Source: Candidatus Thioglobus sp. NP1
GTDB taxonomy: Bacteria; Pseudomonadota; Gammaproteobacteria; PS1; Pseudothioglobaceae
DNA: 64,000 nucleotides
Direction: 5' to 3'
Assembly (NCBI RefSeq): GCF_003326015.1
Contig: NZ_CP023860.1
Coordinates: 1,426,001-1,490,000 of the forward strand
The notes beneath the pieces are model-generated. The model had not been told where the DNA came from, did not search any database, and worked only from the letters and a program-made list of their open reading frames with translations. Position numbers and translations under genes: made by a program. Positions 27,197-46,988 of the stretch are shown one piece after another; positions within the stretch are counted from its first letter, which is position 1, and each line of letters begins with the position of its first letter.

Positions 27197-27230
27197 AGTT
27201 CACATTTTTAAATAAATGTTTATAATAACT

Positions 27231-27292
27231 GGACGCTGATTTGTTTCGATTGCTAGCGTTGTCACTGCAAGTGACTAAAACAAGCTAAAGGT
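27231..27292 (+). promoter_or_regulatory. SAM-II-type riboswitch aptamer upstream of metK
   Basis: P1 pairs ACGCT (27233-27237) with AGCGT (27255-27259); the loop opens with the SAM-II motif GATTTG, and the 3' strand ends GCTAAAGG (27284-27291), as in SAM-II RNAs. The loop TTGTTT (27241-27246) is exactly complementary to AAACAA (27278-27283), forming the expected H-type pseudoknot. An extra perfect 6-bp hairpin (GTCACT/AGTGAC, 27261-27275) is inserted between P1 and the 3' strand, where ordinary SAM-II has a short linker. Related SAM-V is an alternative. SAM binding should lower metK expression. Confidence 0.75.
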
Positions 27293-27304
27293 GGTGTTTT
27301 CCGG

Positions 27305-27336
27305 AGAAACCCAACTTTTAGGTTTTTTAATTTTTT
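27305..27336 (+). terminator. Riboswitch-linked terminator before metK
   Basis: AGAAACC (27305-27311) pairs with GGTTTTT (27321-27327; one G-U), followed by T-rich sequence. The GAAAC strand can instead pair with GTTTT just upstream (about 27296-27300), a possible competing hairpin. Because the aptamer's 3' end is about 55 bases from the metK start, transcription termination is more likely than direct masking of the ribosome site. Confidence 0.5.
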
Positions 27337-27349
27337 ATAGGACTTCACT

Positions 27350-28483
27350 ATGATTTTTACATCAGAATCTGTTTCAGCTGGTCATCCAGACAAAGTTTGT
27401 GATCAAATTTCCGACGCTATACTTGATGCTGCTCTAGCTCAAGATAAAGACTCTAGAGTTGCTGTCGAAACTTTAGTAAAAGATAATCAAGTAGTGCTTG
27501 CTGGTGAAATAACTACCAATGCAAATATTGATTATGATCAAGTTGTAAGAAAAACTATTCTTGGAATTGGTTATGATAAAGAAGAATATGGTTTTAATGG
27601 AGGCACTTGCTCAATAACTAATCTTCTTGGAAGACAATCCCAAGATATTTCTATGGGTGTCACTGAAAGTGAAAATCATGAGCAAGGAGCTGGTGATCAA
27701 GGTCTAATGTTTGGTTATGCAGAAGACTCTACAGATGAGTTAATGCCGGCACCTATAATGCTTTCTCATCAATTAGTACGGCAGCAAGCTGATCTTATGC
27801 TAAATGGATCTATTCCTTGGCTTAGACCTGATGCAAAGTCTCAAGTCTCATGCATATACGAAGGTAACCAAATTGTTGGTATTGATGCAGTTGTTTTATC
27901 TACTCAGCATGATGGTGATATTTCACTGGAAGAACTTAGAGCAACAGTTCTTGAAAAAATAATTAAACCAATCCTTCCAGAAAAATGGCTAACAAATAAT
28001 ACGCAATATCATATTAATCCAACTGGAAACTTTGAAATAGGTGGGCCGGTTGGAGATGCTGGTTTAACAGGTAGAAAAATTATTGTTGATACTTATGGAG
28101 GCATGGCAAGGCATGGTGGTGGGGCATTCTCTGGCAAAGACCCTTCTAAGGTTGACAGAAGTGCAGCCTATGCAACTCGCTATGTTGCCAAAAATATTGT
28201 TGCAGCAGGAATTGCTGAGCGCTGTGAAATCCAAGTTTCTTATGCAATTGGTGTTGCAGAGCCTACCAGTATTAGTGTTGACACTTTTGGGACTGGTAAA
28301 TTAGATAATCATGAAATTGAAGCACTAATCAGAGAACATTTTGATCTTCGCCCTAAGGGTCTTATTGCAATGCTAGATTTGAAGCGCCCAATATATCAAC
28401 AGACTGCAAGTTATGGTCATTTTGGAAGGAATGAGGACTCAATAAGCTGGGAGAAAACTAATAAGGCTGAGCTTCTAAAATAG
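27350..28483 (+). CDS. metK: S-adenosylmethionine synthetase
   Basis: Makes SAM from methionine and ATP. 377 residues. [22 protein letters not shown] with the catalytic His, [12 protein letters not shown], and [19 protein letters not shown] are the diagnostic motifs. Next to ahcY, it forms one half of the methyl cycle in this window, and each gene has its own metabolite-sensing leader. No stable terminator separates it from the ahcY promoter. Confidence 0.97.
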
Positions 28484-28506: not shown

Positions 28507-28580
28507 TATAATACATAACTTGCCAAGGAGCGTTGCATTGAGAATTTTTTCAATCAGGCTTGGTAATCAAAACGACGCTC
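28507..28580 (+). promoter_or_regulatory. Promoter and SAH riboswitch of ahcY
   Basis: TATAAT at 28507-28512 would start RNA at about 28519, exactly at the aptamer. P1 pairs TTGCCAAG (28520-28527) with CTTGGTAA (28559-28566); the core GGAGCGTTGC follows the SAH riboswitch consensus, an inner hairpin uses ATTGA/TCAAT, and the pseudoknot pairs GAGCGT (28528-28533) with ACGCTC (28575-28580) perfectly. SAH binding stabilises the pseudoknot and raises ahcY expression in characterised examples, disposing of a toxic by-product. Found mainly in beta- and gammaproteobacteria. Confidence 0.9.
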
Positions 28581-28608
28581 ATTTTTTTCAACTTAACAGG
28601 GAATAAAA

Positions 28609-30021
28609 ATGAGCGAATCAACAATAGATAATGCTGGCTTTAAAGTTTCTGATCTCAACCTTGACTATAAGGTTGCTGATATTAATTTAGCAGACTTTGG
28701 TCGTAAAGAGATTGAACTTGCAGAAGATGAAATGCCTGCATTAATGGCTCTTAGAGCAAAGTATAGTAAAGAACAGCCACTTAAGGGTGCAAGAATCATG
28801 GGTTGTATTCACATGACAATTCAGACTGCTGTCCTGATGGAAACACTTATAGATCTTGGGGCTGAAATACGCTGGTCATCTTGTAATATCTTTTCAACTC
28901 AAGATCATGCAGCATCAGCTATGGCTGCAAAAAACATACCAGTTTTTGCCTGGAAAGGTGAAACTGAAGAAGAATTTTTATGGTGTATTGAACAAACTAT
29001 TCTTCACAATGGTAAACCATGGGATGCCAATATGATTTTAGATGATGGCGGAGACTTAACAGGCATGGTTCATGACAAGTATCCAGAAATGCTTGATAAA
29101 ATTCATGGTATCAGTGAGGAAACTACAACTGGTGTTCATCGCCTTTTAGAAATGATTGAGAGTGGTGAGCTTAAAGTTCCTGCTATAAATGTCAATGATG
29201 CTGTAACGAAGGCTAAAAATGATAATAAATATGGCTGTCGTCACTCCTTAAACGATGCCATTAAGCGTGGTACTGATATGCTGATGTCAGGTAAAAAAGC
29301 CCTTCTTATAGGCTATGGTGATGTTGGAAAAGGTTCTGCTATGTCACTTCGACAAGAAGGAATGATTGTGAAGATTACTGAGGTAGATCCTATTTGCGCT
29401 TTTCAAGCATGTATGGACGGCTTTGAAGTTGTATCACCCTACATAGATGGCATAAATACGGGCTCAATAGATTGCATTAACAAAGAATTATTAAGTACTA
29501 CTGATTTAATTGTAACAACAACTGGTAATACAAATGTTTGTGATTCAGCAATGCTTAGAAGCCTCAAGTCTGGCTCAGTAGTATGTAATATTGGTCATTT
29601 TGATAATGAAATTGACACTTTGTACATGAGAGATAATTGGAAATGGGACGAAGTGAAGCCCCAGGTTCACCGTATCTATCGCTCTGAAGACAACAATGAC
29701 TATCTAATACTTCTTTCTGAAGGAAGATTAGTTAATCTAGGAAATGCAACCGGTCATCCTTCTAGAATTATGGATGGTTCTTTTGCAAACCAAGTACTTG
29801 CTCAAATGCATCTTTTTGAAAAGAAATTTGCTGACTTACCAAAAGATCAGAAAGCTGAGAATGTTTCAGTTGAAATTCTTCCAAAGAAACTTGATGAAGA
29901 AGTTGCTGCTGGAATGGTTAGTGGGTTTGGTGGTGTAATGACTATTTTGACTGATACTCAGGCAAAATATATCAATACTCCAAAAGAAGGTCCATTTAAA
30001 TCAGAAACTTATAAATATTAA
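28609..30021 (+). CDS. ahcY: S-adenosylhomocysteine hydrolase
   Basis: NAD-dependent, reversible cleavage of SAH to adenosine and homocysteine. 470 residues, the longer bacterial form. [16 protein letters not shown] near the N-terminus, [21 protein letters not shown]-binding [16 protein letters not shown] and the C-terminal [13 protein letters not shown] are characteristic. AGGGAAT ribosome site precedes the ATG. Controlled by the SAH riboswitch upstream and closed by a strong terminator. Confidence 0.97.
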
Positions 30022-45564: not shown

Positions 45565-46348
45565 ATTAAGAAGAAATTATTTAAAAAAACAAAGAAAACC
45601 AATTAAGGTTATTTTAGTTAAGATTCTGAAAGGTTTGTTTTATTTAATTATAATTTTGTCATTTGCAAGTTCGATATATTTAATAAATAATTCAAAATTA
45701 TTTGAACCAAGTATTACTTGGGAAATTAGAGGTGATTTTGAAACTTTGACTAATCAAAATAATGAAATTAACAACTCATCTATTATTAATAAATATTTTG
45801 TAGAAACTATAACCCATCAATATGATGATTTAATAAAGTCAGTTCTAGAAAATAAATATTTAATAGAACTTTCTCAAATCAATAAAAATGTGGAAAAACA
45901 CCCATGGGTTTCCAAAGCTAATGCAGAGAGAATATTTTGGAATAAGATTAGAGTTACAGTTGAAAATCATGATATAGCAATGCAATGGGGGTCAGAAGGA
46001 TTTATTTCTTCTAAAGGTATTTTATATCTACCCAGATTTTTAATTTCCTCAGATACTCCTATTGGAATTGTTTCAAAAGATAATATTAAACAGTTTTATA
46101 TAGATTTTAAAAAATATCAAGCAACATTAGGATCATTAAAAATTGCCCGCTTTGAGAGGTCAGCTATTGACCAATTAATACTTGAAAATAATATAAAAGT
46201 AATTTTAGGCTATCAAAAACAAAGTGAACGACTTGATCTATTTATCAAGGTCTATAAAAATTTTAAAAAATGTAAAAAAGATAGGCCAACATGTATTTTT
46301 GATATGAGATATCCAAGAGACTTTGCATTTAGTTATTCGCCATTATAA
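45557..46348 (+). CDS. ftsQ: Cell division protein FtsQ
   Basis: Bitopic divisome protein with a periplasmic POTRA domain. 263 residues: basic cytoplasmic N-terminus, membrane helix (about 28-46), POTRA region with KHPWVSKANAERIFWNKIRVTVENHDIAMQW split over the conserved stretch, and beta domain. Position after ddl is standard. It is the last gene of the block: ftsA and ftsZ, which normally follow, are absent and the coding end overlaps a convergent gene by 20 bases. Confidence 0.9.
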   Translation: MAKLRRNYLKKQRKPIKVILVKILKGLFYLIIILSFASSIYLINNSKLFEPSITWEIRGDFETLTNQNNEINNSSIINKYFVETITHQYDDLIKSVLENKYLIELSQINKNVEKHPWVSKANAERIFWNKIRVTVENHDIAMQWGSEGFISSKGILYLPRFLISSDTPIGIVSKDNIKQFYIDFKKYQATLGSLKIARFERSAIDQLILENNIKVILGYQKQSERLDLFIKVYKNFKKCKKDRPTCIFDMRYPRDFAFSYSPL

Positions 46349-46988
46349 CTCTGTAACAAAGAGAAAAGCTGATTGCCATCCAGTAGATTATCATGACTAT
46401 TGCTGTCCAAAATAAAAACTCATTTGCTCCAAGAAGGATTAATAGGCCTATTAAAATGCATGGAATTCCGAGCTTTAGAGAGAAGATACTGAATTGAACT
46501 CCTAACTTTAATTTATTTTTCCTATATGGAATATCATTTGCAATTGAAACTAAATTAAGTGATATAGGGATGAGGAGAAAATAAATTACAGGTATTAAAA
46601 ATGGTGAAATAAATATTGGAAACTGGGTTGCAATTGACAGAAAAATAGACAAAAGAAAAAAACGTCCAAATCTTAGACTTGGAAGAACGACTCCTAAACG
46701 AGCAACAGAGTTATTTCCATTTACCACCATACGATAAATATTAATAACAAGTGCAATGTGGCCATATTCAAAAAATAATAAATAGAATCCATAATTATCT
46801 GGATTAGCTTGAATCTCTCCATTTCCAAGAAGCTGAGCTTGCATAACAACTATAACCTCTGGCAAGATTGTTATGAATGGAATCATCATAAGCAATGGAA
46901 AGATACTAACCTCAAGCAACTTTTGCCAATTATTAATAGCAAAAGCTAAACTTGCGAGGATTGTTTTAAGTATTGGTATTGTTTTCAT
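46329..46988 (-). CDS. Hypothetical multi-pass membrane protein
   Basis: 219 residues with about five or six hydrophobic helices (near 30-50, 70-88, 110-145, 170-188, 192-210). I do not recognise the family. Its ATG overlaps the mltD stop by 4 bases, so it is translated after the transglycosylase from the same message; its 3' end runs 20 bases into ftsQ on the other strand. A role at the cell envelope is a guess from this context only. Confidence 0.7.
   Translation of the reverse strand: MKTIPILKTILASLAFAINNWQKLLEVSIFPLLMMIPFITILPEVIVVMQAQLLGNGEIQANPDNYGFYLLFFEYGHIALVINIYRMVVNGNNSVARLGVVLPSLRFGRFFLLSIFLSIATQFPIFISPFLIPVIYFLLIPISLNLVSIANDIPYRKNKLKLGVQFSIFSLKLGIPCILIGLLILLGANEFLFWTAIVMIIYWMAISFSLCYRVIMANN

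Follow-up and report, generated by a model that had tools for sequence, protein, structure and literature searches.

A candidate SAM-II-type riboswitch with a linker hairpin precedes metK in the SUP05/Thioglobus lineage

In the 1.69-Mb, single-contig genome of Candidatus Thioglobus sp. NP1, the metK gene, whose nearest named records come from the SUP05 cluster and Candidatus Thioglobus, is separated from the preceding open reading frame by a gap of about 150 nt and is followed, about 35 nt past its end, by an SAH riboswitch and then by ahcY (Table 1). The stretch analyzed here, hereafter the window, comprises 64,000 nucleotides (positions 1,426,001 to 1,490,000 of contig NZ_CP023860.1), and at Rfam gathering thresholds it yields this SAH riboswitch and nothing else. 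Its placement after metK recurs among relatives: in 62 of the 63 family genomes that match the SAH model, the riboswitch lies 15-197 nt 3' of the gene. The gap upstream of metK holds a sigma-70-like promoter whose -10 box ends 6 nt short of the first stem of the element described below, P1, with two promoter-like sites seen in the metK leader stretch versus 1.0 in shuffles. A TATAAT or TAAAAT box is present within 45 nt 5' of P1 in all 72 loci with enough upstream DNA, compared to 14% when the closest 26 bases are shuffled, and is spaced 6-10 nt from P1 in 68 of the loci. With a -10 box placed just 5' of P1, the metK mRNA should therefore begin at or near the aptamer. Homology of metK in phages gave nothing on the leader.

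Table 1. Features of the metK region, in window coordinates; percentages are alignment cells holding a pair.
Feature	Position	Strand	Evidence or remark
Sigma-70-like promoter TTCACA-16-TATAAT	27199..27226	+	11/12 consensus matches
P1, 5' strand ACGCU	27233..27237	+	pairs with 27255-27259, 5 bp; 99.7% of cells paired
L1, GAUUUG, predicted major-groove third strand	27238..27243	+	UUU 27240-27242 invariant; role by homology to SAM-V/SAM-II (passages of PMC6061858)
P2a, 5' strand UU	27245..27246	+	pairs with GG 27293-27294; 96.3% of cells paired
A and pseudoknot P2, 5' strand UUGCU (27250-27254)	27249..27254	+	AUUGC invariant in 67/67
P1, 3' strand AGCGU	27255..27259	+	pairing in alignment
P3, inserted perfect linker hairpin GUCACU-GCA-AGUGAC	27261..27275	+	6/6 pairs change on both sides; 90.9% of cells paired
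L3, A-rich UAAAACAA, predicted minor-groove strand	27276..27283	+	near-invariant A columns; role by homology (passages of PMC6061858)
GCUAAAG, P2 3' strand; U27286 bulged and predicted to contact the SAM adenine; includes A27289	27284..27290	+	invariant in 67/67
Proposed SAM-free competitor hairpin, CUAAAGGU strand with ACUUUUAG	27285..27321	+	in minimum-energy form of unbound leader
P2a, 3' strand GG	27293..27294	+	pairing in alignment
Proposed terminator hairpin GAGAAACC-CAACUUUUA-GGUUUUUU, then AAUUUUUU	27304..27328	+	positive in lenient scan
metK, methionine adenosyltransferase	27350..28483	+	NCBIfam TIGR01034, 577.7 bits
SAH riboswitch, between metK and ahcY	28519..28587	+	RF01057, 49.3 bits, cut-off 37
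ahcY, adenosylhomocysteinase	28609..30021	+	NCBIfam TIGR00936, 515.3 bits

From position 27233 onward the leader contains, in this order, P1, GAUUUG, AUUGCU, a perfect hairpin, an A-rich strand and GCUAAAGG. The first-pass annotation, made from the letters of the window, had described a P1 stem, a GATTTG loop and an GCTAAAGG strand, and these are indeed found at 27233-27259 and 27284-27291, respectively. In the window P2a consists of two U-G pairs, its 5' strand being CC in most relatives, and A27283, the last base of the L3 strand, pairs in P2. As the fold energy of the window's leader stretch is unremarkable (z -0.93), it is conservation and not stability that carries the case.

metK was located in 77 of the 83 genomes of the family (f1, which we take to be Thioglobaceae), and leaders were read among loci L009-L042, L059 and L119-L158, plus L169 and L170. 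The element was recognized by pattern in 73 loci, among them L010 and L015, which matched a looser expression. With L146 (contig end), L157 and L158 omitted, these gave an alignment of 66 distinct sequences (A1) and, on addition of L170, one of 67 distinct rows (A2), the window included. Under the combined P1, P2, P2a and P3 pairing, 96.4% of the 1200 cells of A2 hold standard pairs versus 91.2% in shuffles, a value that none of 500 shuffles attained, and sliding the partner strands against each other lowers the pairing to 17-52%. Both-sided change occurs among the 67 rows at every one of the six P3 pairs, at two of the five P1 pairs (in one sequence each) and at one of the two P2a pairs (in four sequences). 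P2 shows no covariation in the same rows and draws no support from it because it does not vary; its strands are complementary in 67/67, except for the outermost (last) pair, which is unpaired in one sequence. Folding energies of the linker are -2.3 kcal/mol or lower in all 73 loci, with a mean of -5.0 vs. -0.8 after shuffling, and the counterparts of the bases that line the SAM site in known structures (27240-27242, 27249-27251 and 27286-27289) are invariant throughout A2.

The alignment also bears on which pseudoknot is to be preferred. An exact 6-bp pseudoknot had been proposed for the window, which we take to be TTGTTT 27241-27246 with AAACAA 27278-27283; the P1 loop has no other perfect 6-bp partner up to position 27344. 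This pairing is rejected here, not being conserved, with 65.5% of cells paired compared to 65.8% in shuffles, and the alignment instead supports UUGCU 27250-27254 with A27283, G27284, C27285, A27287 and A27288, around a bulged U27286. The extra perfect linker hairpin, GTCACT-GCA-AGTGAC in DNA letters, is on the other hand real, and its covariation, together with scores beneath the Rfam cut-offs, bears out the suggestion of a distinct structural variant.

A model of our own, R1, built from the 67 distinct metK leader sequences, matches the leader element in 74 of the 83 family genomes (57.9-91.5 bits), and given this recurrence the element is real and conserved, and not a product of chance. Among its carriers in the SUP05/Thioglobus lineage is a Bathymodiolus gill symbiont (L040). 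The nine genomes devoid of an R1 match include five in which no metK was found (G016, G020, G030, G073 and G079), one whose contig ends at metK (G047) and one with a distant metK of 59% identity (G012); in G060 and G001 metK and its leader are present with no recognizable element, the leader of G001 reaching 14.7 bits. Two family genomes have a second, weak R1 match (27.3 and 23.2 bits). The window has one as well (46496-46563, minus strand, 18.8 bits), located inside an open reading frame (46329-46988) and taken as chance.

Rfam leaves the metK element unannotated because it falls below the Rfam cut-offs. On the 231-base leader of the window the long-loop SAM-II model RF01726 scores 13.5 bits against a cut-off of 44 (E=4.7 in a search admitting E up to 10), aligning to the expected leader positions with the P3 hairpin treated as an insert; by itself this match proves nothing, since unrelated families reach similar E-values in that search. 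Neither RF01726 nor RF00521 rises above its cut-off anywhere in the 83 family genomes. For RF01726, the four highest scores there (26.2-27.9 bits) all fall on metK leaders, and at E<=1 the model finds matches in 81/83 family and 7/14 control genomes, mostly at chance level. RF00521 gives nothing above chance level in the window genome, and matches in all 14 control genomes as well. The first-pass annotation had named two outcomes that, occurring together, would speak against its reading: the sub-threshold scores with SAM-II and SAM-V models came true, and the absence of covariation did not.

Beyond the family, a search with R1 of 369 sampled genomes of the class (E<=0.01) returned six, four of them from the family itself and two from other families, where the element stands before metZ (G420, locus L176) and before metN (G230, locus L177). 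The SAM_alpha model gives the metZ leader 36.4 bits, with a cut-off of 36, and the metN leader 28.2 bits, below it. Among 398 sampled genomes of the phylum (E<=0.02) there was one further match, at 40 bits before metX in G766, whose leader carries a P3-like hairpin and matches no Rfam model up to E=1. In the family of that genome, f108, 59 of 150 sampled genomes match R1 (E up to 0.5, 19.9-45.9 bits). The best 30 loci of these 59 genomes were fetched and 20 of the 30 given to Rfam. A MetX homologue begins about 50-100 nt 3' of the element in all 30, and P3 is present in seven. Of the 20 run through Rfam, the 14 that lack P3 each give a SAM_alpha match at E<=1, six of them above the cut-off, while the six with P3 show no SAM match. 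The best matches of one f108 MetX protein in a plasmid collection are to Neisseria, then Acinetobacter, and we infer that f108 is betaproteobacterial. R1 was derived from metK leaders alone, and its matches in the leaders of metX, metZ and metN argue strongly for a SAM-II-type aptamer shared by all four. The earlier claim that metK is preceded by a core of the SAM-II type in this gammaproteobacterium is supported.

Several further loci deserve mention in their own right. Two short contigs, which may be strays in their bins, hold SAM-II-like elements without P3: L208 (G029:C83), at 31.1 bits before an O-acetylhomoserine sulfhydrylase, and L209 (G006:C51), at 26.7 bits with an apparent second copy about 100 nt downstream by eye. 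In SAR86-type genomes, the metK leaders L043, L044 and L053 show GATTT and GCTAAA motifs by eye; none of the 12 SAR86-type metK loci matched an Rfam model up to E=1 and none of their leaders matched R1, and these leaders may hold another SAM-II-like variant.

How, then, does the element relate to the known pseudoknotted SAM classes? With SAM-II (RF00521, RF01726) it has in common P1, GAUUUG, the ..UUGC.. strand, GCUAAAG and P2a, all in the same order: the loop on P1 contains GAUUU(G) followed by the ..UUGC strand, P2 joins UUGC to GC-U-AA with a bulged U and invariant strands, and a P2a of 2 bp forms between the loop and the strand 3' of GCUAAA. The leader, moreover, belongs to a gene of the methionine/SAM pathway, metK, as SAM-II elements belong to methionine-pathway genes, where according to passages of PMC2258182 they are often tied to terminators. 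Unlike SAM-II proper, the metK element remains short of the gathering scores of RF00521 and RF01726 throughout the family, would control metK, and bears a covarying P3 in a linker that, in the passages drawn from PMC6061858, has no such hairpin in SAM-II; the same passages give a P2a of 5 bp in 60% of SAM-II RNAs, in contrast to the 2 bp seen here. The presence of P3 makes the metK element a variant and not a canonical SAM-II.

A divergent SAM-V riboswitch (RF01826) offers the closest competing identity. SAM-V too is an H-type pseudoknot with a P3 hairpin at the same linker position after P1 and a 2-bp P2a, as described in passages of PMC6061858; the window genome does hold a SAM-V match above the cut-off (44.7 bits) along with two weaker ones, and R1 weakly matches SAM-V elements of relatives (14.6, 13.3 and 11.5 bits). 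The pairing scheme differs, however: SAM-V joins UUGUGC to GCAC-U-AA (pairing as in passages of PMC6061858) and, in the SAM-V alignments, ends in CACUAAAAAGGAG with the Shine-Dalgarno sequence attached, whereas the metK leader joins UUGCU to AGC-U-AA, has another 3' consensus and places its Shine-Dalgarno sequence about 45 nt downstream. RF01826 exceeds its gathering score in four of the 83 family genomes, the window genome included, in each case at loci other than the metK leader, and under stricter filters it shows no match up to E=1 at the metK leaders of the 83 genomes, a result that counts against SAM-V membership. As R1 also gives the SAM-II-type elements fetched from other families 26-46 bits, higher than it gives SAM-V, we regard a divergent SAM-V as quite unlikely and the assignment to the SAM-II type as very probable on the sequence evidence.

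The SAM-V matches elsewhere in the window genome (L159:2012-2079, plus strand; L160:2087-2155, plus strand; L161:2587-2652, minus strand) merit a separate word. The one above the cut-off sits before an open reading frame of 169 aa with no NCBIfam match, and the others lie at a betaine-homocysteine S-methyltransferase (36.8 bits) and at the start of metZ (26.1 bits). In relatives, two or three SAM-V-like matches occur within about 1.4 kb (L166:1934-3303, minus strand; L163:2066-3057, minus strand; and L168), a clustering that possibly reflects repeated control.

Downstream of the aptamer, evidence for the switching step comes from the family more than from the window. Statistics were compiled over 67 distinct downstream stretches from 72 loci, with p values from 200 base shuffles each that ignore relatedness. 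A terminator-like CC..GG hairpin with a U-tract, by a lenient definition, is present in 49/67 leaders, compared to a shuffled mean of 1.65 and maximum of 5, and the stretch after the GG pairs with the Shine-Dalgarno sequence at p<=0.05 in 54/67. In the window, the lenient scan finds a terminator stem with two G-C pairs and a U-tract, a stricter scan lists none on the plus strand at the metK leader, and the Shine-Dalgarno pairing has a p of 0.10, so that the window makes a weak case for terminator and Shine-Dalgarno masking alike. The competitor was likewise rightly read from the letters, as the GCUAAAG strand can form 8 bp with ACUUUUAG; the unbound leader has a minimum energy of -14.3 kcal/mol with this competitor included, and when GCUAAAGnnGG is held the terminator-like hairpin remains, at -7.4. 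The duplex of GCUAAAGnnGG with the downstream stretch has a p of 0.05 in the window and p<=0.05 in 14/67 leaders, and competitor pairing as a general feature, being significant by itself in no more than those 14, is put forward as a proposal. Transcriptional control, earlier suggested for the window, is thus likely for the family and weakly indicated in the window.

An opposite direction of control has to be weighed against these hairpins, namely an ON switch in which the GCUAAAG...CUUUUAG hairpin and its U-tract form the terminator and SAM binding prevents the hairpin. In the window this hairpin is part of the minimum-energy form with GUUUUUU directly 3' of it. In 44/67 leaders, a count that stands without a shuffled control, the (C)UAAAG strand makes at least five contiguous pairs with a stretch near the U-tract, the hairpin having a U-tract at most 3 nt away, and in 9/67, the window among them, the U-tract follows it directly, an arrangement that suits an ON switch. 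Against it, 36 of the 44 also possess the CC..GG hairpin with a U-tract of its own, which excludes the GCUAAAG strand, both hairpins thus being present as a switch would need. The excess of CC..GG hairpins over shuffles, the frequent occurrence of GCUAAAG stems with no or one G-C pair, and the positive feedback on SAM that an ON switch at metK would entail speak against it as well. We therefore judge the ON direction unlikely and OFF control of metK by SAM likely.

Two other readings concern what the element would bind. The same aptamer fold could serve a ligand other than SAM, such as SAH or a SAM analogue, and the spermidine riboswitch class, according to passages of PMC10853860, exploits a close variant of a SAM aptamer. 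The predicted SAM-contact columns are nonetheless invariant, including the U:A.U triple that reads the sulfonium in passages of PMC6061858, the target gene metK makes SAM, and SAH already has a riboswitch of its own just past metK, all of which render another ligand very unlikely. The strong conservation of primary sequence in P1 and the core could also be that of a DNA or RNA site for a protein regulator, with no riboswitch involved, a reading we hold to be extremely improbable, since the sequence of P3 changes in a covarying fashion and the core turns up again before metX, metZ and metN in other families, in some cases above the SAM_alpha cut-off.

In light of the covarying P3, the invariant predicted contacts and the met leaders on which R1 lands, we propose that the metK element is a SAM-II-type core with a hairpin in the linker where SAM-V has its P3. 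The core would comprise P1, the GAUUUG third strand, the pseudoknot of UUGC with GC-U-AA and the 2-bp P2a, to which the linker P3 is added. Passages of PMC6061858 and PMC11508383 place the SAM site of SAM-V and SAM-II at the third-strand U's, A18, U19, U20, the bulged U47 and A48-A50, and the SAM-II triplex is described in passages of PMC5352136. RNA polymerase would begin transcription close to the aptamer's 5' edge. At high SAM levels, GCUAAAG and GG would be locked into the pseudoknot triplex, leaving the downstream strand free to form the CC...GG hairpin, which with its U-tract would end transcription, and in many relatives a pyrimidine stretch after the GG would cover the metK Shine-Dalgarno sequence. 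At low levels, GCUAAAG would be free to pair with the CUUUA stretch within the terminator, allowing expression of metK, such that the maker of S-adenosylmethionine would be shut off by its own product. Passages of PMC9373788 report a comparable prediction for SAM-II upstream of metZ in Sinorhizobium, namely termination on SAM. Within this proposal SAM as the ligand, the triplex, the OFF direction and the switching step are inferred. The explanation as a whole, a SAM-II-type core with P3 that senses SAM and switches metK off, appears probable with good confidence, and the exact combination of terminator and anti-Shine-Dalgarno mechanism has about an even chance of being correct.

The literature provides further points of comparison. 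The first-pass annotation called SAM-II best known from alphaproteobacteria, which is fair, although its occurrence in beta- and gammaproteobacteria is already in print (passages of PMC2258182 and PMC2704228). A metXZ element, described as novel, was reported from betaproteobacteria in 2014 by a study that found SAM_alpha only in Rhizobiales and Rhodobacterales (passages of PMC4239095). Like ours, the metXZ element lies in a leader, that of metX or metZ, and has a terminator and a proposed pseudoknot (same passages); it differs from ours in that the f108 metX loci, if taken as that element, mostly lack P3. Our results suggest that the f108 metX elements are the published metXZ element, which would hence be of SAM-II type. 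The SAM/SAH riboswitch (RF01727) is likewise a small RNA motif before metK (passages of PMC2864571) with a pseudoknot (passages of PMC7367207), but its model has no match in the window scans and PMC2864571, in the same passages, restricts it to Rhodobacterales. Among the matches listed in a search of the open-licence literature we found no report of this SUP05/Thioglobus metK element and no paper on a P3-bearing SAM-II; the supplement of PMC2864571 on long loops could contain hairpin-bearing forms.

Together, these observations suggest an optional linker hairpin common to both pseudoknotted SAM classes and offer the published metXZ element an identity, that of a SAM-II type. A broader reading, which we advance tentatively and at somewhat less than even confidence, would have a large P3-bearing SAM-II subclass lying below Rfam cut-offs in Gammaproteobacteria in the GTDB sense, which takes in the betaproteobacteria, with P3 gained, perhaps independently, at metK of the SUP05 family, in part of the f108 metX elements and in SAM-V, and with SAM-II and SAM-V forming one superfamily with a modular linker slot. 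On the same reading, the succession of metK, SAH riboswitch and ahcY in SUP05 would sense the product and by-product of methylation in series, coupling a terminator with Shine-Dalgarno masking. For the SUP05/Thioglobus marine lineage itself, the element places a putative SAM sensor before metK and adds it to the SAH sensor between metK and ahcY, and this lineage thereby gains a candidate feedback switch on SAM synthesis that Rfam cut-offs have missed.
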